Positions 31,085 to 47,721 of a stretch of DNA of 64,000 nt are shown piece after piece. Both the position numbers and the translations under genes were made by a program. Origin of the DNA: Dysgonomonas hofstadii (lineage in GTDB: Bacteria; Bacteroidota; Bacteroidia; Bacteroidales; Dysgonomonadaceae); assembly GCF_014196915.1 (NCBI RefSeq), contig NZ_JACIEP010000008.1:1-64000 (forward strand). Reading direction: 5' to 3'. Each line of letters begins with the position of its first letter. Within the stretch, counting starts at the first letter, position 1. Under the pieces are notes generated by a model. The model saw only the letters and a list, made by a program, of their open reading frames with translations, searched no databases and was not told the origin of the DNA.

Positions 31085-31132
31085 AAAAAGGAGAGGTGCT
31101 CGAGTGGTTGAAGAGGCACGCCTGGAAAGCAT
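31085..31132 (+). repeat. left 48-bp attachment repeat with 5' half of tRNA-Ser
   Basis: Forty-eight bases identical to 46219-46266: five A followed by the tRNA-Ser sequence from its first G (31090) through the anticodon loop. Beyond this the match stops, so this copy is a truncated tRNA and marks the left junction of the integrated element. Confidence 0.93.
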
Positions 31133-31269: not shown

Positions 31270-32490
31270 TTAATTTTCTTGTACAACTAGGTGTTTATTT
31301 TGTAGCATATATTCAGCTTCTTTTTGCATATCTAAGACTGCTAAATTATAATATTTTGAGAAGTCAGGATGCAAAATTAAAAGTGCCATCTTTCCAATTT
31401 TTAGATTGTAATATTTTTCCAAAATAAACCTGTGAATATTTTGCTTTAAGCAGGCTTTGTGATATTCACTACTAGGTGTCTTATTCATGCCATGTAATCC
31501 CACTCCATATTCTCTAACTGGAATTACATTTCTTTCTTCATCAAATAATTTATTTGATCTAATCCAATCACACATAGTATAAGAGCCATCAGCATCTTTA
31601 AATATTAAATCAACTGAACCTATAACTTCATGTTCAGGGCTATATATAAGCCAATCTGTTTTATAAATATTAGGTTTTATTTCTTTTTCTACCAGATTTT
31701 TAAAAATTGAAAACTCTTTAGATATGTCATATTCTAAATCAGATACTTTTTTATTAGGACTATTGAAACTAAAAGAATATTTCATTTCAACTTTTTTGTT
31801 TTGAAAATAATTTTCAATTTGCATATGTAGGTGTCTTCCTAGTTCTTTTCCCAGACTACTATCATGTTTCCATTTATCTTTTATTTCCTGTATACTACAA
31901 TTTTCTTGAATAGCTTTCTTTCTTGCTTTTTCTTCTAAATTAAAAGGGAAGAAGCCTCCTATTATATCTCTGACAGGGGTTAAAAGATATTCTTTATTAT
32001 GGTAGTATGAATCTGTATCTTTATGATAGAATAGGTAGTAATCTCTTTCTTGTATATTTCTAAGATTATGACCTTCTAATGAGATTTTTTTTATGTCACT
32101 ATTGTAATTATTACTTTCAGATTTAATAATAGTTTCTGGTTCTATAGGAGAATTATCTATTATTACTTCTGCATCAGATTCAGATGTTTTTCCTGTTTTA
32201 AATTCTTCTGTAATAGAGTTTGATTCACTTGTTAGCAATTCATTCTCAATCTTTCCAGAAGGTTCTGAATCTACAATGTCATCTTCTATTATAATTTCAT
32301 TAGTAGTTGTTTCTTCTGATTTGATTGGAGTTTTTTCAATTTCAATAGTAATAGGTTTGTAATCTCCATTTGCCTTTTTTGTTTCTGTAGACCTATCTTT
32401 CTTTTTGTCAGGAAATAATCTTGTCAGAAAAATTAGTATAATACCAACTAATAATACAATCAGAAGAATTTGTTCAAAAGCCAAAGCCAT
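31270..32490 (-). CDS. membrane-anchored PD-(D/E)XK nuclease-like protein with altered active site
   Basis: About 406 residues from the chosen start. An N-terminal helix (about 7-24, LLIVLLVGIILIFLTRLF) is followed by a charged, low-complexity linker (to about 140) and a C-terminal RecB-type PD-(D/E)XK-like domain. There, LGRHLHMQIENYF is the leading helix, EVIGSVDLIF supplies the first Asp, and YTMCDWIRSN the second, then a helix with KACLKQNIHRFILEKYY (the QxxxY motif). The catalytic [D/E]xK would need DWK; here it is DWI, with Arg one step later, so activity is uncertain. I use the ATG at 32490, which begins with the membrane helix; the open frame extends 21 codons upstream. It is the leftmost gene of the element. 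Confidence 0.65.
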   Translation of the reverse strand: MALAFEQILLIVLLVGIILIFLTRLFPDKKKDRSTETKKANGDYKPITIEIEKTPIKSEETTTNEIIIEDDIVDSEPSGKIENELLTSESNSITEEFKTGKTSESDAEVIIDNSPIEPETIIKSESNNYNSDIKKISLEGHNLRNIQERDYYLFYHKDTDSYYHNKEYLLTPVRDIIGGFFPFNLEEKARKKAIQENCSIQEIKDKWKHDSSLGKELGRHLHMQIENYFQNKKVEMKYSFSFNSPNKKVSDLEYDISKEFSIFKNLVEKEIKPNIYKTDWLIYSPEHEVIGSVDLIFKDADGSYTMCDWIRSNKLFDEERNVIPVREYGVGLHGMNKTPSSEYHKACLKQNIHRFILEKYYNLKIGKMALLILHPDFSKYYNLAVLDMQKEAEYMLQNKHLVVQEN

Positions 32491-32598
32491 AGTATAAGAT
32501 TTATAATAAACAGTGATAATATCTACACAAAAATAGTAAGTAATATTTAACATTTCATTAAAGACTACTTACTATTTCATTAAAATGGAGAATTGTAA

Positions 32599-33687
32599 TT
32601 ATAAATCAATTATTTCTCTTATTGAGATTAAGTAAGGTTCATTATTTTCTTCTGATTCTTTTTCTCTACTTAATATGTTTGATTTGTATATCATATATGA
32701 ATACTTTTCAACCCATTCTCCTTCTTTGTTATATACAAATTCATATCTTTCACTGAAATTTGGATTTATTTTTATTCGTCCTGAATCATTGTCCAAAGTC
32801 TTATAAATATAAGATTCCAAATCTCCATGACTATTATATTTCCATTCTTTAATATAGGCTATTGGAGTATATTCTATGTTTTCATAATAGTTCTCCCTAA
32901 TATATTCTTCTTGTTCTTCTGGAGACAAATTATTTGGTACTTGAAAATGCATTGCAGCAGTTTGACCTTTCATTTCCTCTTTGATTCTCCTATTTTTCTC
33001 ATCATAAGTAAAGGAGAAGTCTTCTTCTTTGTCCACCCTTCCATATTTATAATACTCATTTATAATTCGTAGTAGTTGACCTTCTGGATTAAAGATTTCA
33101 GTACCCTTTTCAATTAATTCATTGGAAGAATCTGCTTTCTTTTTAAATTTTCTGAATGTTTTTATTGTTAAGCCATCCTTAGATGGGGATTGCTCTATAG
33201 TAGTTTTTGTATCACCTTGCATTATCTCACTTCTTTCACCTTTGTTATTATAGTGATAGCTCTTTGATTCTAAATACTCTGCAAAAATATCTCCACTTAC
33301 AACTAGCTCAATTAGTTTATTTTCAGCATTTCTTATATATAATGCAGAATCTATATTTTCCCTTTGTAAAGAATATATTTTCTCCAAAAGTTTTTCTTTG
33401 GGAGAATGATAAATATACTTATTGATAGCATATCTACCTTTTAAAATTCTCAGAAGTTTATTATTATTTTCATCATAATATATTGTATCTGAAAGGTTTT
33501 CACTTCTACTATATTCTTCTCCACAAATCCATTTTCCTTCATGCTGTATTGGGGTATAGTGTGTTGTGATTATGCATTTTCTTGCTTCTATAGGAACAGT
33601 ATTAATATCTTCTTTGTTAGAATGTTGCTTCTCTACACAACTTGTAATTAATATTATACTGATTAAGATTGAAAAATTTAATTTCAT
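32599..33687 (-). CDS. lipoprotein with YD-like strand repeats, function unknown
   Basis: A 362-residue lipoprotein (lipobox ILITSC, Cys about 17). The body has repeated beta-strand units around YDENNNKLLR, YNNKGERSEI, FNPEGQLLRIINEYY, YDEKNRRIKEE, YNSHGDLESY and YNKEGEWVEKYSY. These resemble the short YD/RHS-like or MORN-like turns of surface proteins. No enzyme motif is visible. It sits after a 687-nt gap with structured DNA and before the PD-(D/E)XK-like gene. It may be element cargo acting at the cell surface, for example excluding other elements, but that is speculation. Confidence 0.7.
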   Translation of the reverse strand: MKLNFSILISIILITSCVEKQHSNKEDINTVPIEARKCIITTHYTPIQHEGKWICGEEYSRSENLSDTIYYDENNNKLLRILKGRYAINKYIYHSPKEKLLEKIYSLQRENIDSALYIRNAENKLIELVVSGDIFAEYLESKSYHYNNKGERSEIMQGDTKTTIEQSPSKDGLTIKTFRKFKKKADSSNELIEKGTEIFNPEGQLLRIINEYYKYGRVDKEEDFSFTYDEKNRRIKEEMKGQTAAMHFQVPNNLSPEEQEEYIRENYYENIEYTPIAYIKEWKYNSHGDLESYIYKTLDNDSGRIKINPNFSERYEFVYNKEGEWVEKYSYMIYKSNILSREKESEENNEPYLISIREIIDL

Positions 33688-34311: not shown

Positions 34312-34349
34312 CTCACTTAGGTTTCCATTTATATATAGATGTAAGTGAG
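34312..34349. promoter_or_regulatory. palindromic element motif, copy 1
   Basis: CTCACTTA (34312-34319), a 22-nt spacer, TAAGTGAG (34342-34349). On the minus strand the spacer begins CATC and ends ACC, as in copy 4. It lies just after the HEPN stop. Confidence 0.65.
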
Positions 34350-34374: not shown

Positions 34375-35379
34375 TTAAATACTATCCTTTATTTCTATTG
34401 TTTTATTTATCAACATTTTCCCATGTTCTATTATTGGATTAAAAAATTTTGATATTGCATCATTCCTCCCTGAGATGAAGAGATTACATGAATTATCTAA
34501 TACTGTTATTTGTACAATATAATCTGCAAACTTTATACCATCTACTTCTAAATTATCCAAATAATCAATAATATCAAACTTATCTTCAAGAATACTTATA
34601 TCAATCATTAAGTTCTTTAGGTCTTTCCTAAATTTATTACTGCCTGAATAATACCTTTTATTTCTATTTGCATCAGGATATTTATTTGATAGTTCTTTAT
34701 TGATTAGTCTACCAAATTCCAGAAGCTTGTTTAATGATAAAATAAGATAATTATGTTCTATTTTTATTTGCTGAGATACTTTATAACCAAAAGCAGGAAA
34801 TCTTTTAACATATTCTAAATCAGTTATACCATTTCTATGTACAAATAGATGTCTTCTTGTATGAATCTCTTCAATATCTTGAAAATTGATTCCTATATTT
34901 CGAATATCTATTTCAAATAACTTCTTATAGTATTTCTCAATCTCCTTTAACCCTCCACTGGTTAGATTCCTAAAATCTTTAGATATAATGTCATTTTGAA
35001 TTTTATTTACACTACTCATGCTTAAAAGATAGTTTCTTTGAAAAGTAATAGTATCAGAAACCTTAAATGGAGATATATCCCTCTTGAATATTTCTAAGAT
35101 TACATCTGTGAGGTAGACTTCCAAGGAAGTTATGCTAGAGATCAATATTAATTGCCTTAATTTGAATGGATATAAATGCTCTAATCTTTCATATAAAGCT
35201 GTTGGACTATGTTCAATTGTCCCAACTGTAGTTTTCCATGTAGGTTTTAATTTATCCTGCTTTAATTCTTGCTTTAATCTTTTTTTCTCTAACTGATAAA
35301 GATGATAGGTTATGTCGTAAATTTGTTTTGAATCTTTTATATCCTTTTTAAACTTGTTATACGACTCAAATCCTTCCAT
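34375..35379 (-). CDS. HEPN-domain protein, candidate RNase effector
   Basis: A 334-residue, mostly helical, basic protein without signal or membrane helix. At about 172-186 it has HTRRHLFVHRNGITD, in which R176 and H181 form the RX4-6H motif of HEPN ribonucleases. The surrounding helices (LRQLILISSITSLEVYLTDV, about 74) match HEPN proteins of the MAE_28990 or RiboL-PSP kind found in toxin-antitoxin and abortive-infection systems. The N-terminal KKRLKQELKQDKLK stretch may be a coiled coil. No partner antitoxin lies directly beside it; the next gene upstream is DUF3871 after 90 nt. RNase activity is inferred. Confidence 0.65.
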   Translation of the reverse strand: MEGFESYNKFKKDIKDSKQIYDITYHLYQLEKKRLKQELKQDKLKPTWKTTVGTIEHSPTALYERLEHLYPFKLRQLILISSITSLEVYLTDVILEIFKRDISPFKVSDTITFQRNYLLSMSSVNKIQNDIISKDFRNLTSGGLKEIEKYYKKLFEIDIRNIGINFQDIEEIHTRRHLFVHRNGITDLEYVKRFPAFGYKVSQQIKIEHNYLILSLNKLLEFGRLINKELSNKYPDANRNKRYYSGSNKFRKDLKNLMIDISILEDKFDIIDYLDNLEVDGIKFADYIVQITVLDNSCNLFISGRNDAISKFFNPIIEHGKMLINKTIEIKDSI

Positions 35380-35469
35380 AATATAAATTGTTAAATCTCA
35401 ATAAATACAAATATATATACTATACTTAAAATAATATCTATAAAAGATAAACATTAAAAGAAATATTAT

Positions 35470-36498
35470 TCACTCAATAAACCATCTATACTCCTTATCT
35501 CCATGCAAAGCCCTATTAAGCCCTTCCAAGAGTTCAGTTGCATTTAAAGATCTATCTAATAGATTGTCAATATAACTATTCTTGTTTGCTCCTGTAAACA
35601 GATTATAGACTTTCCAGAGATTAATAGCATCTGCACCCTCTTCTATTCTGAAATTCTTATCATTGTAATAGGCTTTGGCTACTGCATTGATATGAGTATC
35701 TCCAAATTCCATACTAGGTAATAACTTCTTTTGTGTATTAGGTAAGCATTGATACAGTTTACTTTTACCTATTAACTGTGCAAACTGATGCTCTGTTAAG
35801 TAAGAATTCTGAAAAGAAGACATAAGTTGCAAATGCCTGTTTGGGTTATATTGCTGAAATAAGATTAATGAATGTTTGAATAATTCTTCCAAACTCATAA
35901 CTCTTAATTCTGATTTATACCCATCAGTAGATACACATAGATTTGTGCAAACAAGATTCTTAAAACCTATAAATATCTTAAACTTCTCTACACTCTTTTT
36001 AGAATAGAGGTTTTCATGGTTTAAGGCTCTTACTCCACCAATGGAAAGATTAAGCCTGTTCCCTTCTATATCCTGATAGATTGTAGGCACTTCAAAGCAG
36101 AAAGCCATCCTTTCATAATAAATAGTCTTATCACTCTCTAAAAGCTGACTGACAGGTTTATTTATAGCTTCTGGAATTCTCCCTTTGACTACATGAGAGA
36201 CTCTTATATCTGGCTGTAAGATAGTTTCATTTGGAAAGAAACTACTTGCTGCATCCCAAACTGTTTCTATAAAATTAGTATGGCTGATAGTAACCTCATT
36301 ATCCTTAGAAAAGACAGGTACAATACATTCATGCTTTAAATGATGTAAACTTGCTTCTTTGGTATTGGCTTCTATAAAAGGGCTTGGATTGCAGTCACAG
36401 ATATCTGTAATTTCTATTATATCTTGATTAGGGAGGAATTGTGAAATCATTACATCTCTATGATTGCTTTTTACTGTAGCTAATTGCATTGTTTCCAT
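35470..36498 (-). CDS. DUF3871-family protein
   Basis: A 342-residue protein matching the DUF3871 pattern: IEANTKEASLHHLKHECIVPVFSKDNEVTISHTNFIETV (broken here only by description, about 42-80), RVSHVVKGRIPEAI and the C-terminal AINLWKVYNLFTGANK. The family is known from Bacteroidetes mobile DNA and resembles DUF932-type plasmid proteins in having conserved His/Asn/Arg clusters. The role is unknown; a replication or anti-restriction function has been guessed for related families. A copy of the palindromic motif lies in its upstream region. Confidence 0.75.
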   Translation of the reverse strand: METMQLATVKSNHRDVMISQFLPNQDIIEITDICDCNPSPFIEANTKEASLHHLKHECIVPVFSKDNEVTISHTNFIETVWDAASSFFPNETILQPDIRVSHVVKGRIPEAINKPVSQLLESDKTIYYERMAFCFEVPTIYQDIEGNRLNLSIGGVRALNHENLYSKKSVEKFKIFIGFKNLVCTNLCVSTDGYKSELRVMSLEELFKHSLILFQQYNPNRHLQLMSSFQNSYLTEHQFAQLIGKSKLYQCLPNTQKKLLPSMEFGDTHINAVAKAYYNDKNFRIEEGADAINLWKVYNLFTGANKNSYIDNLLDRSLNATELLEGLNRALHGDKEYRWFIE

Positions 36499-36530
36499 AT
36501 GGAGTAAATTTTTTATTAATGATTAATATG

Positions 36531-36568
36531 CTCACTTTGTTTCTATATTATTTATATATCTAAGTGAG
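36531..36568. promoter_or_regulatory. palindromic element motif, copy 2
   Basis: CTCACTTT (36531-36538), 22-nt spacer, TAAGTGAG (36561-36568); outer bases extend the match to TGCTCACTT / AAGTGAGCA. It lies 33 nt upstream of the DUF3871 start. Confidence 0.65.
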
Positions 36569-36582
36569 CAAAATATACTTTA

Positions 36583-36611
36583 AAATAAAAAGGGAAGACT
36601 TTAATCTTCCC
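36583..36611 (-). terminator. terminator of the 89-aa gene
   Basis: Perfect 7-bp stem GGGAAGA / TCTTCCC (36592-36598, 36605-36611) followed on the minus strand by TTTTTATTTT. It lies directly after the stop at 36624. Confidence 0.8.
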
Positions 36612-36623
36612 TGTATCTGTTTA

Positions 36624-36893
36624 TTATAATACTGCTAAGGTTATAGCTTTGCTCTCTCCTTTCTGATGCAGAAGGTAGAACATTTCTCCTGTCTCAGAAA
36701 CACATACTTGTGATATTACAGGGTTGGTCAATTCTCTTATATCTGCTTTCTTAGAGACTGCCCCTGTTTCAAATCCATAGACAAAGAAGCATTTTCCTGT
36801 AGCCTCATTTTTCTTAATCTCAATCTTTTCTACATGGTGGTTTTGCTTAAATTGGCTCACACTCCAACTTTCTAAAAATGTTAGTCCATTCAT
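36624..36893 (-). CDS. 89-aa protein of unknown function upstream of DUF3871
   Basis: A small soluble protein with alternating strands: FESWS-type start, KCFFVYGFETGAVSK (about 33), VCVSETGEMFYLLHQKG (about 64). No signal or membrane helix. It has its own terminator, so it is expressed separately from the DUF3871 gene. The beta-rich pattern is compatible with a small nucleic-acid-binding or single-domain regulator, but no family is recognised. Confidence 0.6.
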   Translation of the reverse strand: MNGLTFLESWSVSQFKQNHHVEKIEIKKNEATGKCFFVYGFETGAVSKKADIRELTNPVISQVCVSETGEMFYLLHQKGESKAITLAVL

Positions 36894-36919
36894 AATTTCA
36901 AATATTATTGTTGTTGTTG

Positions 36920-36945
36920 TGCAGGGGGACTATCCCCTCACTGCA
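36920..36945. other. G/C-rich stem-loop in an AT-rich gap
   Basis: TGCAG (36920-36924) pairs with CTGCA (36941-36945), and GGGG with CCCC inside. It is the only G-rich block in the 227-nt gap between the SIR2 and 89-aa genes and may be an origin-like or regulatory structure. Confidence 0.35.
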
Positions 36946-37120
36946 AAAGATGGAGGGGGTGTAGTTTGGTTATCTAGTGCTTGTGGATATACAGAACTTT
37001 TTGAAAAAAAATAATAAAAAATTTTCTTTCAATTTCTCAAAGAGTAAGAATAGTTAATATTATACTAATTATAAAGGAGTTAGTGAAGCTAAATTTTATC
37101 TATTTAATTACTTCCTGAGA

Positions 37121-38989
37121 TTATTCAATGCTCTCAATAAAACAGACAATACATTTATTAGCTTTACATGAAACATGTAATCTTTTGTCTTTTCCAGAAA
37201 TATATCTTTCTTTATTAAGATATATAGGTTCTTCTATTTTTATGTATTGATAGCCTATGTCTAATTTATGCCCATGTAGATTTGCTATTTGCTTTTTATC
37301 ATTAACAGCCTCAAAGCTATCTTTCTTTAAAATATCTTTTTTGTAATCTTTTCTTCCTGACCTATTATAAGTCTCTATTGAGATTGTGCCATCTTCTGAA
37401 TTGTCCAATATATTGTTATGAACAATATTTTTATAGATTAAATCTACATTTTTATAATCTGCTGTAGTTATTTTAACTAGATTGTCAAAAATAACAGAAT
37501 AATGTTTTTCTATTATTTTTAATCTCTCTAGATATTCAAGCCTTCTAATAATAGCTTTATCAAATTCCATTTGAGGAATGTCTAAAGATATACTGAAATT
37601 GTTACCTGTAACTAGTTTCATCTTATTCCCTTCAAATAGTTTTAATGTGAGTTTGTAGAATAGTATTTCATCATTAATTCTACCTAATTTGCCATTATCT
37701 TTATGCTCTGAAGTTATTGAGACTTTCATTTCATCTTTTTCAGTATCTAAGGTTATTAATACAGTCAATATTCCTGCTTTTAATCTACATTTAAGTTTCA
37801 ACTCTCCTTTTCCTTTATAAAAGTCAACAGGTATATCTGTGAATTCATCTGTATCATTAAAATAAAAGTTAATGAAAGTTTTTTCTGGTATAGGAAGTAG
37901 TGTTATTTCTTTGAGTCTGTCAGATAAAGGATGTTTAATTCCATTTATGACCATTTGAGGATTCATTATTAACTCAGCTGGAATTACAATTTCATCAGTG
38001 ATAGAGGAGTTCATTATCTTTTCAGAAAAGTTTTTATCATTAAGATTAAATTTGAAAATTTGATTTAAAGCTTTTCCTGTTATTGGTTTTAAAGATTCAA
38101 TAATATTACCTCCTGCTACAGGTTTAACACCTACATACATCCCTGAATTGAGAACTGTATATTTATTGGCTGTATCTAGCGACACATATTTTCTTTCAAC
38201 ATCAAATAGTAAATTGTTATTTATATTCTCTATAAGTCCACTAACAAACTCTTCTCCTGTAGAATTTACATAACAAATACCTTTCCTTACTAATTCATTT
38301 TGTTTGAGAGATGGGAGATTAGGGGCAATAAAAAACATTTCTTTTTTATTGCTGCCTAGAGTATCACTGACTTTATTAAAGATTGCTGAAATATTAGAAT
38401 CTTCCATTCCATAGCCAATAAACACAACTGTCTTTGTTACAATCCTTTCTTTTATTAAATGCCAAATAGGGGTATTATAATCAATATTATAGAAGTTAGT
38501 ATAGTCATCTTTGGTTATAACTATCTTATCTGATTTAGTAAAATCCCCATGAATCTTTACTATTGAAGTTTTATCCTCTTTTATATAAGGAACATCTGAA
38601 TCAATAACTATTTTTTGTCCCCTTTCTTTATAAGCATCCTCTAAAAGAGTATCATAATTTGTTGTTATAATAGTTTTTATATGAGGTATTTGAGAAAGTA
38701 AATCATGATATTCTGTAGATGTAGGTTTATTATAGATTATATTTTCTTTTAATAGCTCAAATAATTGATTCCTAGAACCATTTCTTATATTTACAAAATC
38801 ATTAGCAATATCTTGGAGTGCTTTATTACCTCCAATAACTTCTTTTTCTTCTTTTGTGCAATTTGAATATATTATTTGAGCAAGTTCTCCTCCCATAGGA
38901 TAACCTGCATATTTAGAAAAGCCTGCACCAATCCATAATACAACATCTTCTTTACGAACTAATTCAAAAAGTCTTTCTTTATTATTCAT
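37121..38989 (-). CDS. SIR2-domain protein, predicted NADase defence effector
   Basis: A 622-residue protein. Residues about 15-260 are a SIR2-like Rossmann domain: IGAGFSKYAGYP (21-31), TTNYD with Asn111 and Asp113, the catalytic-type His147 in KIHGD, and FIGYGMEDSN (about 195). Such SIR2 domains in phage-defence systems (ThsA, DSR, SIR2-HerA, short-pAgo partners) hydrolyse NAD+. Residues about 270-620 are a beta-rich region with no recognised family, likely sensor or oligomerization module. The gene starts 4 nt after the polymerase-like gene, so the two are co-transcribed and maybe coupled. There is no adjacent HerA, TIR or Argonaute gene, so it is either stand-alone or linked to the element's replication proteins. 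Confidence 0.82.
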   Translation of the reverse strand: MNNKERLFELVRKEDVVLWIGAGFSKYAGYPMGGELAQIIYSNCTKEEKEVIGGNKALQDIANDFVNIRNGSRNQLFELLKENIIYNKPTSTEYHDLLSQIPHIKTIITTNYDTLLEDAYKERGQKIVIDSDVPYIKEDKTSIVKIHGDFTKSDKIVITKDDYTNFYNIDYNTPIWHLIKERIVTKTVVFIGYGMEDSNISAIFNKVSDTLGSNKKEMFFIAPNLPSLKQNELVRKGICYVNSTGEEFVSGLIENINNNLLFDVERKYVSLDTANKYTVLNSGMYVGVKPVAGGNIIESLKPITGKALNQIFKFNLNDKNFSEKIMNSSITDEIVIPAELIMNPQMVINGIKHPLSDRLKEITLLPIPEKTFINFYFNDTDEFTDIPVDFYKGKGELKLKCRLKAGILTVLITLDTEKDEMKVSITSEHKDNGKLGRINDEILFYKLTLKLFEGNKMKLVTGNNFSISLDIPQMEFDKAIIRRLEYLERLKIIEKHYSVIFDNLVKITTADYKNVDLIYKNIVHNNILDNSEDGTISIETYNRSGRKDYKKDILKKDSFEAVNDKKQIANLHGHKLDIGYQYIKIEEPIYLNKERYISGKDKRLHVSCKANKCIVCFIESIE

Positions 38990-38993
38990 GCTT

Positions 38994-40610
38994 TTAGCTA
39001 TTTATCTGTATTAATATGTCTTGGTGTTTTAATTTATTTTCTCTCCATTCTTCAACCTGTAATGTGGGAGGGACTCCAATTGCTCTGGTTAGCTCTTCCT
39101 CCATTATCCTTTTTACAAAATCTTCATTTCCTTTAGTGGTTACTATTGAATCATGGATAGTAAATATAGGCACTTGTTGCTCCCCTTCTTCCCATATCCT
39201 TTTGCAGCATCTATGCAATACAATCTCACTTTCTATTGATTGGAGAAGGCAAGCTAATCTTGCATGCTGTTTTTTCCTATCAACACCTTTATATTGTCTT
39301 TTTATTATTTTAAATAATTCTGCAATAGAAGGGAATTTTTCTCTGTAATAAACTTTTAACCAATGGTTTTCATCATTAGGATTATCCCTGTTACTGGAGA
39401 AAATTAATGTAAACATAGTTGTTTTAGCATCTTCTCTGGATATATCAATTTCCTTTTCTTCTAAAATCCACCTTTGCACAGTTTCATACATCTCTCCAGA
39501 TGAAACAATCCTTTTGTATTCATCAAAATCAGAAGGACTTAGATTGTCAAAGAAATTTCCTAACATAATGGATATGGGGGTTGTGTTGGATGTTGTAGGG
39601 GTATTGAATAACCCTTGAATATTATTGGGTATTTGACTGAATTTTAAATTGGGATCTGTGTTTGACCAGAAATTAGGGTTTGTCAATGCACTAACTAAGT
39701 AGGGTTGGCTGTTCTTTATATCTATTGAGACTAAGGGTTGTCCATCATAGGTTATAAAGTTCCTATAATCTTTTTGTATGTTGGTTAATACAGAATGTAA
39801 TCTATGAATATTTGAGTCAATCTTAGCTTTATAATCATGAGTCTGTACTGCTTCAGCATTATAAATCAAGGCATTATATTGGCTTATTGGATTTTTCTTC
39901 TCTCCAGAGTCTCTATTTATATCCCAAGCTTCTTCACCTTCTTCTAATTTTTTGTTTTTTAATATTCTACCATATTCTTTAGCCTTTTGGTAATCAATTC
40001 TCAGTTTTCTTTCATTATACCAATGGGATAAATATGAACAATCTAATAATTGATTTCTTTCAAAATCTCCTGTATCTTCATTATAAACTGATTCCTCAAT
40101 AGGTTCAATACTATTTTCAAATCTTCTATATGAATATCTAACTAAATCTGTATTCTCATATATTTCTGAGAATTTATAACCAATGGATTTTTCTTCTGGA
40201 ATGTAATAACCATCTGAGATAATAATTCCTGTATCAATCAAATAATCTAAATAGTCTTTATAATCTTTAAAGAATTTTTGAAGATAGGTTGAATTAAGAG
40301 GTATAAATCCATCTTTTGTAATAGAGTCTTTATTCTTCGCTGGTATAGCACTAATCAGACCAATAAGATACATTAGTTTATCCTTGTCAAATTTAAGTCC
40401 TTTTGAGCTTAAAATTTTGTCTCCATTCAATTCAAATGCACTATAATCAACAAGAGGGTAGTTTCTTAAATGATTGTCAATATCCAAGTTATCTGGTATA
40501 AGGGCAAAATATCCAGAATAAGCTCTCTTTATGTATAAAACTACATGAGAGTCTCCATTCTTCCTAAACTTCTCTATAATATTTCTAACAATCCTATATA
40601 ACCACCCCAT
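38994..40610 (-). CDS. minimal protein with family A polymerase palm domain
   Basis: A 538-residue protein. The C-terminal half holds the motifs of a family A polymerase. Motif A is VSIDIKNSQPY (Asp297). Motif B is SREDAKTTMFTLIFSS, in which R392, K396, F400 and F404 keep the spacing of R754, K758, F762 and Y766 in E. coli Pol I. LLQSIESEIV (about 455) fits the Gln motif, and motif C is FTIHDSIV (H486-D487, with Ser instead of Glu). The first 290 residues show no 3'-5' or 5'-3' exonuclease motif and are of unknown function. It lies between the helicase (upstream) and SIR2 (4 nt downstream). The likely role is replication of the element; a primase-polymerase or template-independent activity is also possible. 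Confidence 0.75.
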   Translation of the reverse strand: MGWLYRIVRNIIEKFRKNGDSHVVLYIKRAYSGYFALIPDNLDIDNHLRNYPLVDYSAFELNGDKILSSKGLKFDKDKLMYLIGLISAIPAKNKDSITKDGFIPLNSTYLQKFFKDYKDYLDYLIDTGIIISDGYYIPEEKSIGYKFSEIYENTDLVRYSYRRFENSIEPIEESVYNEDTGDFERNQLLDCSYLSHWYNERKLRIDYQKAKEYGRILKNKKLEEGEEAWDINRDSGEKKNPISQYNALIYNAEAVQTHDYKAKIDSNIHRLHSVLTNIQKDYRNFITYDGQPLVSIDIKNSQPYLVSALTNPNFWSNTDPNLKFSQIPNNIQGLFNTPTTSNTTPISIMLGNFFDNLSPSDFDEYKRIVSSGEMYETVQRWILEEKEIDISREDAKTTMFTLIFSSNRDNPNDENHWLKVYYREKFPSIAELFKIIKRQYKGVDRKKQHARLACLLQSIESEIVLHRCCKRIWEEGEQQVPIFTIHDSIVTTKGNEDFVKRIMEEELTRAIGVPPTLQVEEWRENKLKHQDILIQINS

Positions 40611-40644
40611 CTCTCATCCATTATGTTAGGAAATAATTCAAAAT

Positions 40645-40681
40645 CTCATTTACTTTTTATTAAATATACAAATTAAGTGAG
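40645..40681. promoter_or_regulatory. palindromic element motif, copy 3
   Basis: CTCATTTA (40645-40652), 21-nt spacer, TAAGTGAG (40674-40681). One arm differs by a transition. It lies 35 nt upstream of the polymerase-like gene, in the gap after the helicase stop. Confidence 0.6.
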
Positions 40682-40686
40682 ATTTA

Positions 40687-42867
40687 CTATATTATAAAAT
40701 ATCTAAGCAAATTATTCTCTACCTTGCCTATAGAGATCTTTCTCTCTCCAAAATTCAGAGGATTTTCTTTTATGGCTACATAGCTGTTCCTTGGTCTGGA
40801 TGTTTCAAAATAAGCCTTAAATAGGCTGATAGAAGTTCTTGGTTTTATAGTCTTGTGGAAATGATATTTGACTATTGGTTCTATCTTCTCATGTATTTCT
40901 TCTGGTGTATATCCTTTTCCTGTTTCAAAGGCTTCTCTCATACTTATTCTTAGAGGGTGGTCTTCTGCCAGACACCAGAACATAATAGCATTGATAAGCC
41001 CCTTGTAAGCTTTAATATTCATATGCCTTATTTCATAGAGGTAGTCTAATAGTTTATCAGATTCTACATATTCGTTCAAATCTATAAATCTTTCAAGGAT
41101 AGGCTTCTCTTCTTTGGTGCAGGTTCTTAGTTTCTCTGCAACATACTTATTTAGAACACCTGTAGGCAGCTTTTCTACTTTCTCTTTCAAGTCTGCAACT
41201 AAAGCAGTCTGTAATGAATCTATTAATTCATTTCTGCTATCTGTGAAATGGTTCTCTATTCTCTGTTCTGCTGATTTTTCTTCATCAGTCCTATTGTTTT
41301 CATATTCTATCTGTGTTACCTGATGTCCTTCTGAAACTAAGGCTTTATATAGTTTCTCTTGATTAATATACAGTTCATTGAATAGTTGTTCTCTTTCTGT
41401 CAGAAAATCAATATTAAGGTAGGCTATATCATATTTTCCTTCATTTATAGTAGGTCTTATAAGTGGAATTGGCTGACCTCTGAATGGGGTTTCAAGGGCT
41501 TTGTCCAATATGGCAAGTTTCATTACATTGAATAAATCTATTAAATCCTTATCTTCTCCCTGTATAATATGGGCTGCATTTATCAAATCTAAGACTTTAT
41601 TAGCCTTTTTAATCAATGTATTTCTATATTTAGCTGTAGTCCTTTTAAACTTAGGCTCATAGTCTGTAGTGTTATAGATTATAGTATCACTCAATATGCC
41701 ATCTTTAATTCTGCATCTACCATAGATTTGAGTTATCTTCTTTGTAGTAAGCATTTGATGTGCATATTTTACATTAGAAACAGTGATAAGGTGGTAAGTA
41801 TCATTGATATCTATTCCAGAAAAATAGCTGCAAGTCATAAAATTGATTCTCTTAGGTAATGTAGAATCATCTTTCAATGGGTAATAATAAGTTCCTGCAT
41901 CTTTCCTGCTTGATTCACTGCACATGATAGCACATTCCTTCTGTGTAGATTCATCTATCATAGATATAATATTCTTTACCTGTGAGACTGTATTATAGGC
42001 TATCAATATCTTATCTTCTGGATATTTTTTTATCAACTCTGTGACTGCATGATTGATGCTGTTAGACTGATTGATATGTATGAGCCTTATCTCTCTTTTC
42101 TTGTGGGATAATTCTTCTATTTCAAATCTGCATTCATTCTGGAATAGAGGATTGGAGAATTCCCCCATTGTAGCAGTTACAATACACCTGTTCTTTACAT
42201 CAAACTTAAAATAGTTATCTATTACTGTTTCTAAATTAGGTCTGTAGTTACTGTCTGCTTGGAGAAGATCTATTTCATCTACCATTAGGAAGCAATGTTT
42301 ATAGGCTTCTTCCCCTAGTATATTCATCAAATAATCTAAGCTGTCTGCTACCACTAAAAACTTTAGAGGCTGAGTAGTATTTTGCTCCAAATAATTAATG
42401 ATTTCATCTTTACTTACCCTGTCTGTAAATTCTCCTATGGAAGTGCCAACATATAGTACTTTTTTAGGGTTCAGATTATTTTCAGCCCATTTAAATTTGC
42501 TATAGGCTAGTTTCTTTGTAGGTACTACTATTATTGAATGTCTGGGTGATTTGAGTTCTAAGGTTGTTGCACCTACTCCTGTAGCTTTTTTGTCTACAAT
42601 TCCATGAGGCAACTTTTGGATAAAATTAGATAGTCTGTATTCATCTGTGAAACCTTGAGATGAACCCCAAATCATAAAATAACCTTTGTGAATGGTAGTG
42701 ATTGTTTCTTCTGGATTAGCTCCTGCCAGAGTATCTAAGACTGCTTCTGAAAATAAATCCTTGACTTGATTTTCTATTATCTCTTTAGGAATTATTTTTT
42801 CTTCTTCTTCTTCTTTTGCAGCCTCATATTTTTTGAGGCTGTCTAGTATGCTTATTGTTTTAGCCAT
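40687..42867 (-). CDS. superfamily 2 DEID-box helicase with unusual Walker A
   Basis: A 726-residue helicase. Motif I reads KATGVGATTLEL (about 94-105), where the Lys of GxGK[ST] is Ala. Motif Ia is IIVVPTKKLAYSKF; motif II is FLMVDEIDLL (DEID, 197-200); motif III is TATMGEF (231); IAYNT and FMTCSYFSGIDI lie in the second RecA domain; motif VI is QIYGRCRIKDG (about 385). The C-terminal 300 residues are helical and unknown. It precedes the polymerase-like gene on the same strand; the two may form a replisome with the element's origin. Loss of the P-loop lysine is surprising; similar GATT loops occur in some phage helicase-like proteins, as I recall. Confidence 0.8.
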   Translation of the reverse strand: MAKTISILDSLKKYEAAKEEEEEKIIPKEIIENQVKDLFSEAVLDTLAGANPEETITTIHKGYFMIWGSSQGFTDEYRLSNFIQKLPHGIVDKKATGVGATTLELKSPRHSIIVVPTKKLAYSKFKWAENNLNPKKVLYVGTSIGEFTDRVSKDEIINYLEQNTTQPLKFLVVADSLDYLMNILGEEAYKHCFLMVDEIDLLQADSNYRPNLETVIDNYFKFDVKNRCIVTATMGEFSNPLFQNECRFEIEELSHKKREIRLIHINQSNSINHAVTELIKKYPEDKILIAYNTVSQVKNIISMIDESTQKECAIMCSESSRKDAGTYYYPLKDDSTLPKRINFMTCSYFSGIDINDTYHLITVSNVKYAHQMLTTKKITQIYGRCRIKDGILSDTIIYNTTDYEPKFKRTTAKYRNTLIKKANKVLDLINAAHIIQGEDKDLIDLFNVMKLAILDKALETPFRGQPIPLIRPTINEGKYDIAYLNIDFLTEREQLFNELYINQEKLYKALVSEGHQVTQIEYENNRTDEEKSAEQRIENHFTDSRNELIDSLQTALVADLKEKVEKLPTGVLNKYVAEKLRTCTKEEKPILERFIDLNEYVESDKLLDYLYEIRHMNIKAYKGLINAIMFWCLAEDHPLRISMREAFETGKGYTPEEIHEKIEPIVKYHFHKTIKPRTSISLFKAYFETSRPRNSYVAIKENPLNFGERKISIGKVENNLLRYFII

Positions 42868-42899
42868 TTTATTTTTAATGTACCTGAGACTGCATCATG

Positions 42900-42937
42900 C
42901 TCACTTAGGTCTTGGGTATTATTAGGATGTAAGTGAG
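42900..42937. promoter_or_regulatory. palindromic element motif, copy 4
   Basis: CTCACTTA (42900-42907), 22-nt spacer, TAAGTGAG (42930-42937). It lies 33 nt upstream of the helicase start, in the gap after the AAA-TOPRIM stop. The minus-strand spacer starts CATC and ends ACC, as in copy 1. Confidence 0.7.
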
Positions 42938-42940
42938 GGG

Positions 42941-44800
42941 TTAATTATCTAATCTTTGAAGCTCTTGTAATGTTTCTAAAATATCTTTATGAATAAAACT
43001 TGGATATAGCCTATAGCTTTTATCAAACATTTGAATACTTAAATTCTTATGTTTATTCAAGAATGAAAAAGTTTGTATATATAACTTTTCTAAATCATGT
43101 CCTCTGATTATAGTAAACCATTTGGGAAGGTAGAACTCCATACCATTAATTACTTCATATTTTACAATTTCCAAATTTTCATTTTTGTTTGGATAATTAT
43201 CTTCTAATTTTGATATTACATTATTCACTATCGTTTGTATATCATGTTGAGATTTATTATAGAAGTTTATAATAGTATCTTCTTCATTGAACCCTACTTT
43301 TTCCTTCTCATTGTTTTCTGATAAAATAAACATTACAAATGCTATAGGGTCAAAAATATAATTATCAACAGCATATCTATTTTTATTACCTAAAACTAGA
43401 ATTCTTTCATTGCCATTATTTTTTAAATCCCAATCAATAACTCCAAATGTAGTAGTGTTTTTAGCTTTTGTTAATGTGTTAACAATATTCTTCACTTTAT
43501 CACAACCATCTTCTTCTGCAGAACTTCCTGCTGTGATGAATTGTAATATAATATCATTTGTTAAATAATTTTCAAATTGATTTTGGATTATAGTATAAAT
43601 ATTCTCCAAATAAAATTTATCAATTGGAGCTTCTACAAATATTTGTTTAATATTCTCATAATATACACTAATAGAATTTAATCCATTTGTTAGTGTTTTT
43701 ATAGCTTCCTTTTTTGATGATTTTATAATGTATCCTAATTCTCTATGCATTCTATACAAATTTAGCTCTGGAGTTAAAGCCACTGTTGTTGGACTATGGG
43801 TTGTCATTATGACTTTGATATTATTTTCTTTTACCAAAACATTTTGTATAACATCAAGCATTTGCTTACTCATAGTTGGATGTAAATATGCATCAGGCTC
43901 ATCAAAAAGTATTACATCTGGAAATTGAGCTCCTGTATTAGATGAATAGATTGCCAAAATAAGTGAAAAAATTACCTTTTCACCAGAAGATAAAAAATCT
44001 GCGTTTAAGGTGGTGTTAGAATCTCTATCTATTAGTTTAATTTCAAAATTAAATCCCTCACTTTCAATATCTGGAGTTTCTAGGTGGTATCTAAATTGGG
44101 CTATTTGAGCTATTTTATTAAAAGTTATCCATGGGGCTTCATTGAGTTCCAAATTTGCTTTTTTTCTAGCCCAATATTGAATATATAAAAATTTTAGATT
44201 AGCTGAAAACAAAGTTGAACTTGGTATAGGTTGGTATGCAATATAATAATAAGGGACTAAATATAAATCAGGGCTAGGGTGTAAATCTATAATTTTTTTT
44301 ATTATATCAATATCACTTTGACTAAATGCAGGAAATGTTACCTTCTTGTCTACATAGTCCTGATTACTTTTTCTAACACCAATAACCTCAAGATATCTCT
44401 TATTAAGCATGCCTAAATTTATATTTTGATCTGAAAATAAATTTATATGATTTATATAGAATAACAATTTATAAGCAATATCTTGTCCTTTGGTAATAAG
44501 TGAATTCTTATCATAGTGATTCCCTAAATCTACATAAGGTGTATCAATCATTCTATATATAATATTTGTAGCAGTTTTATTCTCTGAAATAATCTCTGCA
44601 TTATATATAGTAGTAGCATTACCCACACTATCAATCATTGTATGAGGCATACCCATCATAGGATTAACAGACTCATATAAGTGTGTTAGAAATTGGGTTT
44701 TTCCTGTTCCATTCTCACCTGTAATAACTATGAAATTAGGTAGATTGTACAGTTCTACTTCTTTTATGATTATATAGGGTTGGTTTATTTTTATATCCAT
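42941..44800 (-). CDS. fused AAA ATPase and TOPRIM/DUF4435-like protein (OLD/PARIS-like)
   Basis: A 619-residue protein. The ABC-type ATPase half has Walker A GENGTGKT (28-35), signature LSSGEK (270-275), Walker B VILFDEPDAYLHP (about 297-308) and switch THS (334-336). The C-terminal half resembles TOPRIM-like DUF4435: IFVEAPIDKFYLE (388, Glu390 and Asp394), FITAGSSAEEDGCDKV, FGVIDWDLKNN (Asp456, Asp458) and NRYAVDNYIFDP. In PARIS defence the AriA ATPase and AriB DUF4435 nuclease are separate or fused; OLD nucleases share the same logic. This protein fits the fused form. It is the first cargo gene after the integrase and has an inverted repeat in front of it. Confidence 0.78.
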   Translation of the reverse strand: MDIKINQPYIIIKEVELYNLPNFIVITGENGTGKTQFLTHLYESVNPMMGMPHTMIDSVGNATTIYNAEIISENKTATNIIYRMIDTPYVDLGNHYDKNSLITKGQDIAYKLLFYINHINLFSDQNINLGMLNKRYLEVIGVRKSNQDYVDKKVTFPAFSQSDIDIIKKIIDLHPSPDLYLVPYYYIAYQPIPSSTLFSANLKFLYIQYWARKKANLELNEAPWITFNKIAQIAQFRYHLETPDIESEGFNFEIKLIDRDSNTTLNADFLSSGEKVIFSLILAIYSSNTGAQFPDVILFDEPDAYLHPTMSKQMLDVIQNVLVKENNIKVIMTTHSPTTVALTPELNLYRMHRELGYIIKSSKKEAIKTLTNGLNSISVYYENIKQIFVEAPIDKFYLENIYTIIQNQFENYLTNDIILQFITAGSSAEEDGCDKVKNIVNTLTKAKNTTTFGVIDWDLKNNGNERILVLGNKNRYAVDNYIFDPIAFVMFILSENNEKEKVGFNEEDTIINFYNKSQHDIQTIVNNVISKLEDNYPNKNENLEIVKYEVINGMEFYLPKWFTIIRGHDLEKLYIQTFSFLNKHKNLSIQMFDKSYRLYPSFIHKDILETLQELQRLDN

Positions 44801-44882: not shown

Positions 44883-46115
44883 TCAAAGCAAATTCTTCAT
44901 AGCTTCATCTATCTGACTATTTTCAAAACTATCCAAATAAATCTGAGTAGTCTTTAAATCTGAATGCCCTAAAGCCTCACTTATAATAGCAACATTAATT
45001 CCAGACCTTTTCAAAATGGTTGCAAATGAATGTCTTGCACAATATGTCGTCAGAGGAATAGAAAGATTAATGCTTTCCCCAATCTTCTTTAGATTCTTAT
45101 TAGCTACATAGGTTACTTTCTTTATCCTTCTGACTTGCTGTTCTGCTGTAGCATGTATAGAATCATCCAAAATAGGAAATATATAGTCATTATTACTATT
45201 CTCATATCTCTGTATAATTTCTAAAGCATAAGGTTGTAATAGAAAACTGATTTGTTTTCCTGTTTTATGCCTTTTATAGACTATTCTGGTTGAAACTATA
45301 TTACTCCTTTTTAAATGTGCCATATCCACCATATTTATACCACACCCTAAATAACTGAATAGGAACAAGTCTTTACTGAACTGTAATAAAGATTGAGGTC
45401 TTTTGCTGATTGTCTGTACATCCAGAGATATAATTTTCTGAATATCCTCTTTAAGAATAGACCTCTTTGGTGTAGAATCTTTCAGCTTAGAGACATTATA
45501 TTCATTAAATGGATAATAGTCTTTCTTTACAATGTTATCCTTCACAGCCTTATTATAGACTGCTTTAAGAGTCCTCATTTTTATGCTGATACTATTGTTT
45601 TTATTTCCTATGTTTCTTAAATAAGTTTCATATTTATTCAGAAATGGTACATCTATATCTACAAATTGTAGTTGATTAATTTTTGTAAACCTTTCTAAAG
45701 AATTATACAATGCTTGATAATGGGTTGCATTGCCTATTCTATTTTCTTTTGTCAGTTTTTCTATGACTGAATTTAGATAATCACTTATAGATATATTCTT
45801 TGTTGGTCTTTCTACAGCCTCAATTAATTGATTTAAAGAAAAGTCTTTTCCTATAGATTGAAATTCCAAGACTTGTTTTTGAAACTTAGATAATTTTTCT
45901 GTTATGATATTTTCTAAATATTCAAAATTAGGGCAATTAGGCTTAATCTTATTTTTTGTAGCATCCCAATAGCTTTTTTCTATAGAAATACCTAATCTTA
46001 TTACTTTCTTTTTTCTGTCTTTTACAAGCCTTAAAACTATTGGTATATAGCCTTTTGATGTTAATCTGTAGGTCTCTGCGACTGCTTCTATTTTTACTCT
46101 CATTTTTGTAGCCAT
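44883..46115 (-). CDS. int: tyrosine recombinase (integrase) of the tRNA-Ser element
   Basis: A 410-residue site-specific recombinase with an N-terminal arm-binding domain (about 1-90), SAM-like core-binding domain (about 105-215) and catalytic domain. Active-site motifs are KRHKTGK (Lys), TTYCARHSFATIL (HxxR form, about 350), LGHSDLKTTQIYL (His/Tyr, about 385-395). The position of the first catalytic Arg (FSYLGCGINMVDMAHL) carries Cys instead, as in IntDOT-like enzymes that lack Arg I. It lies 103 nt from the right attachment repeat and is transcribed into the element. Confidence 0.92.
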   Translation of the reverse strand: MATKMRVKIEAVAETYRLTSKGYIPIVLRLVKDRKKKVIRLGISIEKSYWDATKNKIKPNCPNFEYLENIITEKLSKFQKQVLEFQSIGKDFSLNQLIEAVERPTKNISISDYLNSVIEKLTKENRIGNATHYQALYNSLERFTKINQLQFVDIDVPFLNKYETYLRNIGNKNNSISIKMRTLKAVYNKAVKDNIVKKDYYPFNEYNVSKLKDSTPKRSILKEDIQKIISLDVQTISKRPQSLLQFSKDLFLFSYLGCGINMVDMAHLKRSNIVSTRIVYKRHKTGKQISFLLQPYALEIIQRYENSNNDYIFPILDDSIHATAEQQVRRIKKVTYVANKNLKKIGESINLSIPLTTYCARHSFATILKRSGINVAIISEALGHSDLKTTQIYLDSFENSQIDEAMKNLL

Positions 46116-46179
46116 TTTGTAGCCACAAATGCCTAAAAAGGATTCAAATCATATCAAAAACTACTAATACTTTTACCTC

Positions 46180-46209
46180 TTGCATATCCAAAAATATCTT
46201 GTATCTTTG
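46180..46209 (+). promoter_or_regulatory. element-supplied tRNA-Ser promoter
   Basis: TTG (46180-46182), 19-nt spacer, TATCTTTG (46202-46209): an exact match to the Bacteroidetes promoter pattern, 14 nt before the intact tRNA-Ser. It lies inside the element's right end, so the tRNA is expressed from element DNA. Confidence 0.7.
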
Positions 46210-46218
46210 TCCCACAAT

Positions 46219-46266
46219 AAAAAGGAGAGGTGCTCGAGTGGTTGAAGAGGCACGCCTGGAAAGCAT
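46219..46266 (+). repeat. right 48-bp attachment repeat
   Basis: Identical to 31085-31132; it covers the leader A run and the tRNA-Ser 5' half to just past the anticodon loop. It is the right junction of the 15.1-kb element. Confidence 0.93.
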
Positions 46267-46310
46267 GTATACGGGTAACTGTATCGAGAGTTCGAATCTC
46301 TTCCTCTCCG
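46224..46310 (+). tRNA. tRNA-Ser (anticodon GGA), intact
   Basis: An 87-nt class II tRNA: acceptor GGAGAGG with CCTCTCC and discriminator G, anticodon loop CTGGAAA giving GGA, long variable arm, T arm GAGAGTTCGAATCTC. The 5' half lies in the element's repeat; the 3' half is unique here. It also borders the prophage on its right. Confidence 0.93.
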
Positions 46311-46461
46311 CCTGATAAATAGATGATTATGAATATATAGTCATCTATTTTCATGTTGTATATATCCAAAAATATAAATATATTTGGGGGCATATCAGGG
46401 CAAAAAGTGGACTTTTGAGGAAAAACCGTGCAATTTGTGTGCAAAAAAACAATAGTAAATT

Positions 46462-47721
46462 ATGGCATCAGTAAAATTATATCTTGATACCCGTGTTCCT
46501 CGTAAAGATGGAACTTATCCGCTAAAGATAGCTGTTACACATAAAGGGAAATTTTTCATCAATCTTAAAATATATCTGAAAGAGGACCAGCTTGTAGGCG
46601 GCGAAGTCGTTGGTCATAAGAGCAAGAAAATTTATAATACCATAATAGAGCAGTGGCTTATTAATGTAAAAAAAGTATTGTTAGACTTAGCTGCAAATGG
46701 AAAGATTAATAATCTATCCCACCAGCAGCTCAAAAATATAATTGAAAATTATAATGATTCAAATGAGCCCGATGATGAAACGCCATATTTATTTAAGGAA
46801 CATTTGGAAAGATTTATCTCAACTAAAGAAAAGAAGAATACAAAAGACATATATAGGGCTACTCTCAATAAAATCAAAAAACATACTGATATCGATAATT
46901 TAACTTTTGAAGACATTAACCTATCATGGCTGAAAGGATTCCAGCAAAATATATCAGAAGAAGGACTTAGCATTAATGCTCAAGGAATTCATTTTCGCAA
47001 TATAAGAGCAATATTTAATGATGCCATAGACGAAGAATTGATTTCACAAAGCATATATCCATTCAGACGATTTAAGATAAAAACCGAAAAGACAATTAAA
47101 AGATCTTTGACTGTTGAGGATTTAATACAATTGCGCGATTATCCATGCGAAGAACATCAGATGAAGTATCGGGATTTATTCATGCTTACATTTTACCTAA
47201 TTGGGATAAATGTCATTGACCTTCTACATCTGAAAGAAATAATAAATGGGAGGATTGAATACCGAAGAGAAAAAACTTACAGATTATATAGTATTGAAGT
47301 ATTACCTGAAGCTCAAGCTATTCTTGACAAATACAAAGGGAAAGATTATCTATTAAACGCACTTGATACGTACAATTATTACAAAGGATTTGCAGACAAG
47401 ATAAATAAAAATATACAAGAAATAGGGCCATTTGAGATAGTAGAAAAAATAGTAAAAGGGAAAAAGAAGAAAATTAAAGAAAGAAAACCCCTATTTCCTA
47501 GCATAACAACATACTGGGCCCGCCACACATGGGCCACAATCGCAGCCTCTCTTGATATTCCCAAGGAAACTATCGCAGCTGCTTTGGGACATGGTGGAAA
47601 TTCTGTTACTGATATCTATATCAACTTCGATCAGAAGAAGATAGATGATGCGAACAAAAAAGTACTGAAGCATATCAGAGAATATGGAAAACTAAAAAAG
47701 AAGAAAGCCTCCCAAAAATAG
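46462..47721 (+). CDS. int: prophage tyrosine recombinase
   Basis: A 419-residue integrase with arm-binding (about 1-85), SAM-like (about 105-205) and catalytic domains. YRREKTYRL supplies the catalytic Lys, TTYWARHTWATIA the second Arg motif (about 350), and ALGHGGNSVTDIYINF the His and Tyr (about 375-388). At the Arg I site the sequence is FYLIGINVIDLLHL, with Ile, as in other Bacteroidetes integrases lacking that Arg. It differs clearly from the neighbouring element's integrase, so two separate elements adjoin the same tRNA. It ends in TAG. Confidence 0.92.
   Translation: MASVKLYLDTRVPRKDGTYPLKIAVTHKGKFFINLKIYLKEDQLVGGEVVGHKSKKIYNTIIEQWLINVKKVLLDLAANGKINNLSHQQLKNIIENYNDSNEPDDETPYLFKEHLERFISTKEKKNTKDIYRATLNKIKKHTDIDNLTFEDINLSWLKGFQQNISEEGLSINAQGIHFRNIRAIFNDAIDEELISQSIYPFRRFKIKTEKTIKRSLTVEDLIQLRDYPCEEHQMKYRDLFMLTFYLIGINVIDLLHLKEIINGRIEYRREKTYRLYSIEVLPEAQAILDKYKGKDYLLNALDTYNYYKGFADKINKNIQEIGPFEIVEKIVKGKKKKIKERKPLFPSITTYWARHTWATIAASLDIPKETIAAALGHGGNSVTDIYINFDQKKIDDANKKVLKHIREYGKLKKKKASQK

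Follow-up and report, generated by a model that had tools for sequence, protein, structure and literature searches.

A TV-Pol-like family A polymerase on a tRNA-Ser-targeted integrative element of Dysgonomonas hofstadii

We analyzed a 64,000-nucleotide stretch of the 5.0-Mb genome of Dysgonomonas hofstadii (contig NZ_JACIEP010000008.1, our G000:C8:1-64000), here called the window. The region around a gene for a 538-amino-acid (aa) polymerase is, with a probability of roughly 0.7, a 15,134-bp integrative element that lies in the anticodon-arm region of tRNA-Ser(GGA) and carries its own replication module together with defence cargo. The module is best read as a helicase, a family A polymerase of the TV-Pol type and two conserved companions, the small protein g89 and a DUF3871 protein. 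The element is precisely bounded and recently transferred, and a natural 6-kb version contains little beyond integrase and polymerase, which allows a direct test of whether a TV-Pol replicates its element. The comparison of relatives shows that elements exchange the occupants of their helicase and polymerase slots, brings to light an SF2 family which, if it works at all, does so with no Walker A lysine, and indicates that such elements ferry anti-phage cargo among gut-type bacteria. The main features are as follows.

31085..31132, plus strand: attL, 48-bp repeat that copies the tRNA-Ser 5' half and matches attR exactly
35470..36498, minus strand: DUF3871 protein, conserved core gene
36624..36893, minus strand: g89, small conserved core protein of 89 aa, downstream of the polymerase gene
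38994..40610, minus strand: TV-Pol-like family A polymerase, 538 aa (open reading frame, motifs and predicted fold)
40687..42867, minus strand: SF2-fold helicase, 726 aa, with the Walker A Lys replaced (GVGATT), motif II VDEID and motif VI QIYGRCR
44883..46115, minus strand: tyrosine integrase with Phage_integrase, SAM-like and Arm domains (domain search)
46219..46266, plus strand: attR, 48-bp repeat within the functional tRNA-Ser
46224..46312, plus strand: tRNA-Ser (GGA), 5' half from the element

Fold, motifs and class of the polymerase

An AlphaFold model built from an alignment of 63 relatives had a mean predicted local distance difference test (pLDDT) score of 91.2 and a predicted template modelling (pTM) score of 0.89. 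Searching the PDB with this model in Foldseek returned Pol I-type polymerases throughout (best E 2e-7), plus one mitochondrial RNA polymerase (POLRMT). VIA-align superposed residues 180-526 on 5dkt with a Z score of 14.4 and a root-mean-square deviation of 3.8 Å over 278 residues, and gave Z scores of 13.8 for T7 DNA polymerase and 14.0 for Pol theta. By this model the 538-aa protein has a family A polymerase fold, with an N-terminal region (about 35-180) followed by thumb, palm and fingers (180-526). In agreement with a palm, strand 291-298 contains D297, and D487 occupies the turn that joins strand 483-485 to strand 488-492; R270 sits between the short strands 263-264 and 271-272, and two thumb helices (207-224 and 241-256) precede this hairpin. 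Neither Pfam nor the fold matches over residues 180-526 revealed a nuclease domain. The secondary-structure pattern suggests a winged helix at residues ~76-150; this suggestion draws on the pattern, since a comparison of the N-terminal region with the initiator-like protein of a polymerase-less element gave no significant similarity.

The protein contains the hairpin Arg270, motif A around D297 (SIDIKNSQP), motif B as R392-xxx-K396-xxx-F400-xxx-F404 and motif C as H486-D487-S488. Motif B reads REDAKTTMFTLIF here and RRKAKTANFGIIY in host PolA, with identical spacing, and the hairpin reads HRLHSVLTNIQKDYR against GRLSSSNPNLQNIPIR in the comparison with host PolA and T7 RNA polymerase. Motif A is DIKNSQ, compared with DYSQIE in host PolA and DGSCSG in T7 RNA polymerase, and motif C is HDS, compared with HDE in host PolA and HDS (at 811) in T7 RNA polymerase. 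R270, D297, Q302, P303, Y375, E460, H486 and D487 are invariant among the 63 aligned relatives, K396 is present in 62, S488 in 59 and R392 in 53, with Lys in 8. Position +5 of motif A, a Glu in PolA, is Gln (Q302) in all 63. The Glu of motif A helps Pol I to exclude ribonucleotides, and its exchange for Gln302 may therefore alter the choice of sugar. The ratio of nonsynonymous to synonymous substitution rates (dN/dS) was 0.11 relative to the copy in genome G023, indicating purifying selection.

No Pfam family matched the polymerase above its cut-off (DUF5388 reached E 0.003, below its cut-off) and PADLOC returned nothing usable for it. Its sequence profile had no significant match in the PDB (E 0.16 with alignment A1, none with A2) and aligned with host PolA only around motif C. 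A match to PHROG 4756 (1.7e-7) was rejected as an identification because the function of that family is unknown.

An earlier note on this DNA had proposed a family A palm with motifs A, B and C, the motif B spacing of Pol I and no exonuclease domains, encoded next to an SF2 helicase with a changed P-loop on an integrative element of about 15 kb. All of this held: the coordinates of the two open reading frames were correct, the motifs are real, the predicted fold is of the Pol I type and includes the palm, and the helicase and the element are as described below.

TV-Pols were described by Iyer, Abhiman and Aravind (2008, PMC2579912) as transposon and virus polymerases and predicted to be primase-polymerases of mobile elements. 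They comprise 400-600 aa with a minimal family A core, a thumb, an Arg hairpin, two Asp residues, an RxxxK motif and no nuclease, occur on mobile elements alongside genes for integrases and for replication, have an extra N-terminal domain in a subset and were reported from Bacteroidetes and Planctomycetes among others (PMC2579912). The polymerase in the window shares the palm with two catalytic Asp residues (D297 and D487, both 63/63; fold Z ~14), the absolutely conserved Arg before motif A (R270, 63/63), the two-helix thumb ahead of the hairpin, RxxxK in the fingers and carriage on a mobile element with an integrase (within 6 kb at 63 of 80 loci). It likewise has no proofreading nuclease fused or linked to it; the phage-type exonuclease gene of the element (31270-32553) is not adjacent. 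It differs in its partner, which is a lysine-less SF2 or UvrD helicase here and a D5-type AAA+ helicase in the published cases, though only in a subset and not as a demand on the integrase-linked TV-Pols. By anatomy and predicted fold, rather than by sequence profile (for which one named member was compared), the protein fits the TV-Pols. Foldseek also gave a weak fold match to the replication protein of Zamilon virophage (E 9.5e-5). Uncultured phages of 595-636 kb (LR756511.1, LR745206.1 and LR756504.1) encode relatives with ~24-26% identity.

With Pol I, T7 DNA polymerase and Pol theta the protein has in common the thumb-palm-fingers fold (Z ~14) and the motif B spacing, but it lacks their exonuclease domains and has the invariant Q302 instead of the motif A Glu and HDS instead of HDE. 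T7-type RNA polymerases share the HDS of motif C, and POLRMT was among the Foldseek matches; however, the window protein has no N-terminal promoter domain, and its motif A and fingers are Pol I-like.

The sole assayed TV-Pol offshoot is CcPol of SCCmec, a primase once joined by its small partner MP (PMC7581432). CcPol, MP and the helicase form a biochemically demonstrated replication module, which primes DNA at an origin beside the helicase gene (PMC7581432), and the PolA-SSB primases are further published stripped-down family A polymerases of mobile elements (PMC10061031). Like CcPol-MP/Cch2 and the PolA-SSB systems, our element is integrative and encodes a family A polymerase without working exonuclease, a neighbouring helicase and a site-specific recombinase. 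Features of their own are the occurrence in Bacillota, large serine recombinases, an OB-fold partner between polymerase and helicase and remnants of a 3'-5' exonuclease; our element showed none of them, the partner being judged without fold prediction. A gene-free gap of 76 bp separates the helicase stop codon from the polymerase start, and hence the enzyme is not of the CcPol-MP type. Because such polymerases have been published (PMC2579912, PMC7581432, PMC10061031), the polymerase does not represent a new class: it belongs to a kind that is known but has hardly been characterised, and the element is a new form of that kind. The earlier note was thus right that the element is probably self-replicating, and overstated the novelty of a small mobile element with its own reduced family A polymerase.

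The element, its relatives and its modular make-up

The two perfect copies of the 48-bp direct repeat (31085-31132 and 46219-46266) correspond to the 5' part of the tRNA-Ser(GGA) gene. Because the repeat falls in this gene, the element measures 15,134 bp and has given the tRNA a new 5' half. At empty sites in relatives such as G014, G021 and G009 the left flank continues directly into a complete tRNA-Ser. The minus strand encodes all named genes of the element, from the integrase through to the 427-aa gene whose low-coordinate end is 31270. Over the block 35466-42938, identity to genome G023, another species, at the same tRNA-Ser site is 96.1%, while the chromosomal flank is 72% and polA 78% identical; the element was transferred recently. 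In G023 the integrase matches as a fragment only, with insertion-sequence-like genes nearby. A DNA-level search did not find the element in phage records. The split tRNA-Ser receives a new upstream region from the element (46101-46219), and TATCTTTG, which resembles the Bacteroidetes -7 box, precedes the old as well as the new tRNA-Ser copy.

Polymerase loci were found with an alignment-derived motif; a scan of genome contigs with the single sequence gave nothing. The polymerase occurs in 5 of 101 genomes of the host's family, in 12 of 393 genomes sampled from the order (several of these weak) and at no fewer than 80 loci of public genomes, nearly all from Bacteroidota, with a few from Planctomycetota and others. 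An integrase gene lies within 6 kb of the polymerase at 63 of the 80 loci; short contigs or a plasmid account for many of the remaining ones. At more than 12 other loci, tRNA-derived repeats (Ser, Asp, Ala, Gly, Met, Phe and Val) flank polymerase and integrase at distances of 6-18 kb. Those with repeats of 32-95 bp measure 6.0 kb (Ser), 6.4 (Ala), 7.7 (Phe), 8.2 (Met), 8.8 and 10.8 (both Ala), 11.2 and 12.2 (both Met), 11.5 (Phe), 11.7 (Asp and Val), 14.3 (Gly) and 17.9 (Val); ends given by repeats of 16-23 bp may be chance and were not relied upon. What is new is this set of at least 80 loci, with compact tRNA-targeted elements (6-18 kb) built on an integrase and a TV-Pol, nearly all in Bacteroidota. 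The 6.0-kb element, in genome G025, uses the same tRNA-Ser and contains only an integrase (72% identical), the polymerase and two small genes.

The slot between integrase and polymerase is occupied by the SF2 helicase in the window and in L041-L043, by a UvrD helicase in L035, L037 and L038, and by a small HTH_17 protein in flavobacteria. Behind the polymerase the recurring order is g89, a Sak4-like ATPase and DUF3871; the Sak4-like gene is missing from the window. The helicase family is present in 20 of the 101 genomes of the host's family, and related integrase-helicase-g89-DUF3871 elements have a small HTH_36 or replication-initiation-like protein, or nothing, in place of the polymerase.

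The helicase model was weaker than that of the polymerase (pLDDT 74). Its residues 74-520 match an SF2 core (Z 15.8, 319 residues), with two RecA-like domains and motifs II (VDEID), III (TAT) and VI (QIYGRCR). Motif I is TGVGATT, so the P-loop reads GVGATT in place of GxGKT. The Walker A Lys is absent from all 14 family members inspected, 13 of which have the form GxG[AG]T, and Lys93, upstream of the P-loop, is nearly invariant. With dN/dS values of 0.23 and 0.21 in two comparisons, the gene is not decaying. HSV-1 UL9-type origin-binding helicases (UL9 was among the Foldseek matches of the model) and DEAD and RecQ helicases share the SF2 core but differ from this family, in which the Walker A Lys is missing throughout. 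A helicase relative in Phocaeicola faecium (L041, 7434-9842) has lost motif II (VKDME), motif VI and the P-loop Lys and still adjoins the polymerase.

An interrupted palindrome of 37-38 bp (CTCACTTA...TAAGTGAG) precedes the start codons of the helicase, polymerase and DUF3871 genes by 33-35 bp. Its copies, which have no strand, are as follows.

34312..34349: fourth copy, intergenic
36531..36568: 38-bp interrupted palindrome, 33 bp upstream of DUF3871
40645..40681: 37-bp interrupted palindrome CTCACTTA..GTAAATGAG with one mismatch, 35 bp upstream of the polymerase
42900..42937: 38-bp interrupted palindrome CTCACTT-N24-AAGTGAG, 33 bp upstream of the helicase

Three copies are exact, against none expected, and there are no others elsewhere in the window. 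Among the fetched loci, exact copies are confined to those with the helicase-g89-DUF3871 module (L022/L023, L041-L043, L135, L136, L139 and loci that overlap them) and to L002, which is the window's own element. Judged from these sequences, the palindrome links the helicase, polymerase and DUF3871 functionally.

The remaining genes of the element are as follows.

31270..32553, minus strand: 427-aa protein matching the phage exonuclease family phrog_298 (1.7e-9)
32599..33687, minus strand: 362-aa predicted lipoprotein-like protein, cargo
34375..35379, minus strand: 334-aa protein
37121..38989, minus strand: SIR2-domain protein (ThsA-like), defence-type cargo right behind the polymerase
42941..44800, minus strand: AAA ATPase-Toprim protein (AriAB/PARIS-like, retron ATPase-Toprim-like), defence-type cargo

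Replication and alternative roles

Unrelated proteins in one slot were the type of evidence behind the replication roles proposed by Iyer et al. (PMC2579912). Here, initiator-like proteins take the polymerase slot and UvrD or SF2 proteins the helicase slot, which points to replication, and the SCCmec CcPol-MP-helicase module is a precedent. From the gene content we infer a cycle in which the tyrosine integrase would excise the element as a circle, the SF2 helicase would open or remodel the origin, and the polymerase would prime and extend DNA there with no proofreading; the element would thus be copied before it re-integrates or spreads. Alternatively, the polymerase could make the complementary strand after transfer. 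The SIR2 and AAA-Toprim defence cargo would pay for carriage, and the palindrome may have a role in control. Excision, replication of the circle, priming and the role of the palindrome are all steps put forward on sequence grounds.

Several points weigh against this reading. The helicase may be unable to unwind DNA, given the missing Walker A Lys and the relative in L041 without motifs II and VI. Some elements have the helicase and no polymerase, so that this element type does not depend on a polymerase. No MP-like OB-fold partner was identified, although the fold of g89 was not predicted, and g89 is also kept in polymerase-less elements. Finally, the polymerase had no profile similarity to MAP_030 of phage Ma-LMM01, the sole named TV-Pol compared in this way (chosen by motif order); its membership of the TV-Pols is for this reason argued from features and fold. 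A Hymenobacter plasmid with a polymerase relative was rejected as proof that the polymerase alone can replicate a replicon, because the plasmid has its own replication initiator.

A more specific version of the replication reading is tentative. It holds that the enzyme is a priming polymerase with an active site between those of Pol I and T7 RNA polymerase (Gln for Glu, and HDS), started at the element origin by the lysine-less SF2 protein as initiator, and that the elements form a distinct class of self-replicating, tRNA-targeted Bacteroidota elements in which polymerase, initiator and helicase are interchangeable under one controlling palindrome.

We consider it unlikely that the element is a phage satellite, copied by its polymerase during infection by a helper that would package it, for example the prophage next to the same tRNA-Ser. 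The size range of 6-18 kb, the tRNA attachment site, the integrase, the element's own replication genes and the prophage on the other side of the tRNA would all suit a satellite, as would the DUF5681 protein and the terminase large subunit of a distant relative, L027. However, neither the window element nor most relatives with defined ends have a recognised capsid, packaging or terminase gene, and many relatives have restriction-modification-like or metal-related cargo instead. The satellite idea of the earlier note is thus unsupported for this element, in which no packaging or capsid gene was recognised, but keeps some probability for the wider group in view of the terminase in L027.

More doubtful still is a role in repair or gap filling, with the polymerase belonging to a recombination module that aids entry or recombination instead of replication. 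The phrog_298 exonuclease in the window and the relatives with a Sak4-like ATPase between g89 and DUF3871 would suit such a module, but replication-initiation-like proteins occupy the polymerase slot of polymerase-less elements, and UvrD or SF2 proteins the helicase slot. It is improbable that polymerase and SIR2 form a defence unit in which the polymerase senses or makes DNA and triggers NAD+ depletion. The SIR2 gene begins 4 bases past the polymerase gene, its product matches ThsA-type defence proteins, and the pair is kept in G023 at 98-99% identity; yet the G023 copy represents a single recent transfer, SIR2 stands beside the polymerase in no other relative, where an integrase, an HTH_17 protein or a helicase accompanies it, and the minimal element of G025 has the polymerase without defence genes. 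A decayed, inactive polymerase, suggested by the absence of a Pfam match and by altered residues at two positions that are acidic in Pol I (motif A +5 and the one following HD in motif C), is very improbable in view of the metal and template contacts invariant in 63 relatives, the dN/dS of 0.11 and the conservation of the changed positions themselves (Q302 63/63, S488 59/63).

Cargo of relatives and the neighbouring prophage

The flavobacterial loci L044-L084 have a variable cargo bay behind the integrase, HTH and polymerase genes; from sequence reading, several contain restriction-modification-like genes and others a set of TonB-like, Fur-like and metal-pump-like genes. L027 (6101-13269, on the same contig as L091, from a Bacteroidales metagenome-assembled genome) encodes an integrase, a TV-Pol, the DUF5681 protein and the terminase large subunit (phrog_2, 2.4e-23) in 7.15 kb between 17-bp tRNA-Met repeats, and is satellite-like. 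The 427-aa exonuclease-type gene of the window has a counterpart with 83% DNA identity in a polymerase-less element of G007.

A prophage occupies the 3' side of the tRNA-Ser, from 46313 to the end of the window at 64000 and on to about 102533 of the contig. Its integrase gene is at 46462-47721 on the plus strand, it uses the 3' half of the element's tRNA-Ser, and a third, partial copy of the tRNA is found at 102477-102533 of the contig. The 68-kb IMG/VR record IMGVR_UViG_2830022421_000002 seems to fuse this prophage with part of the 15-kb element.

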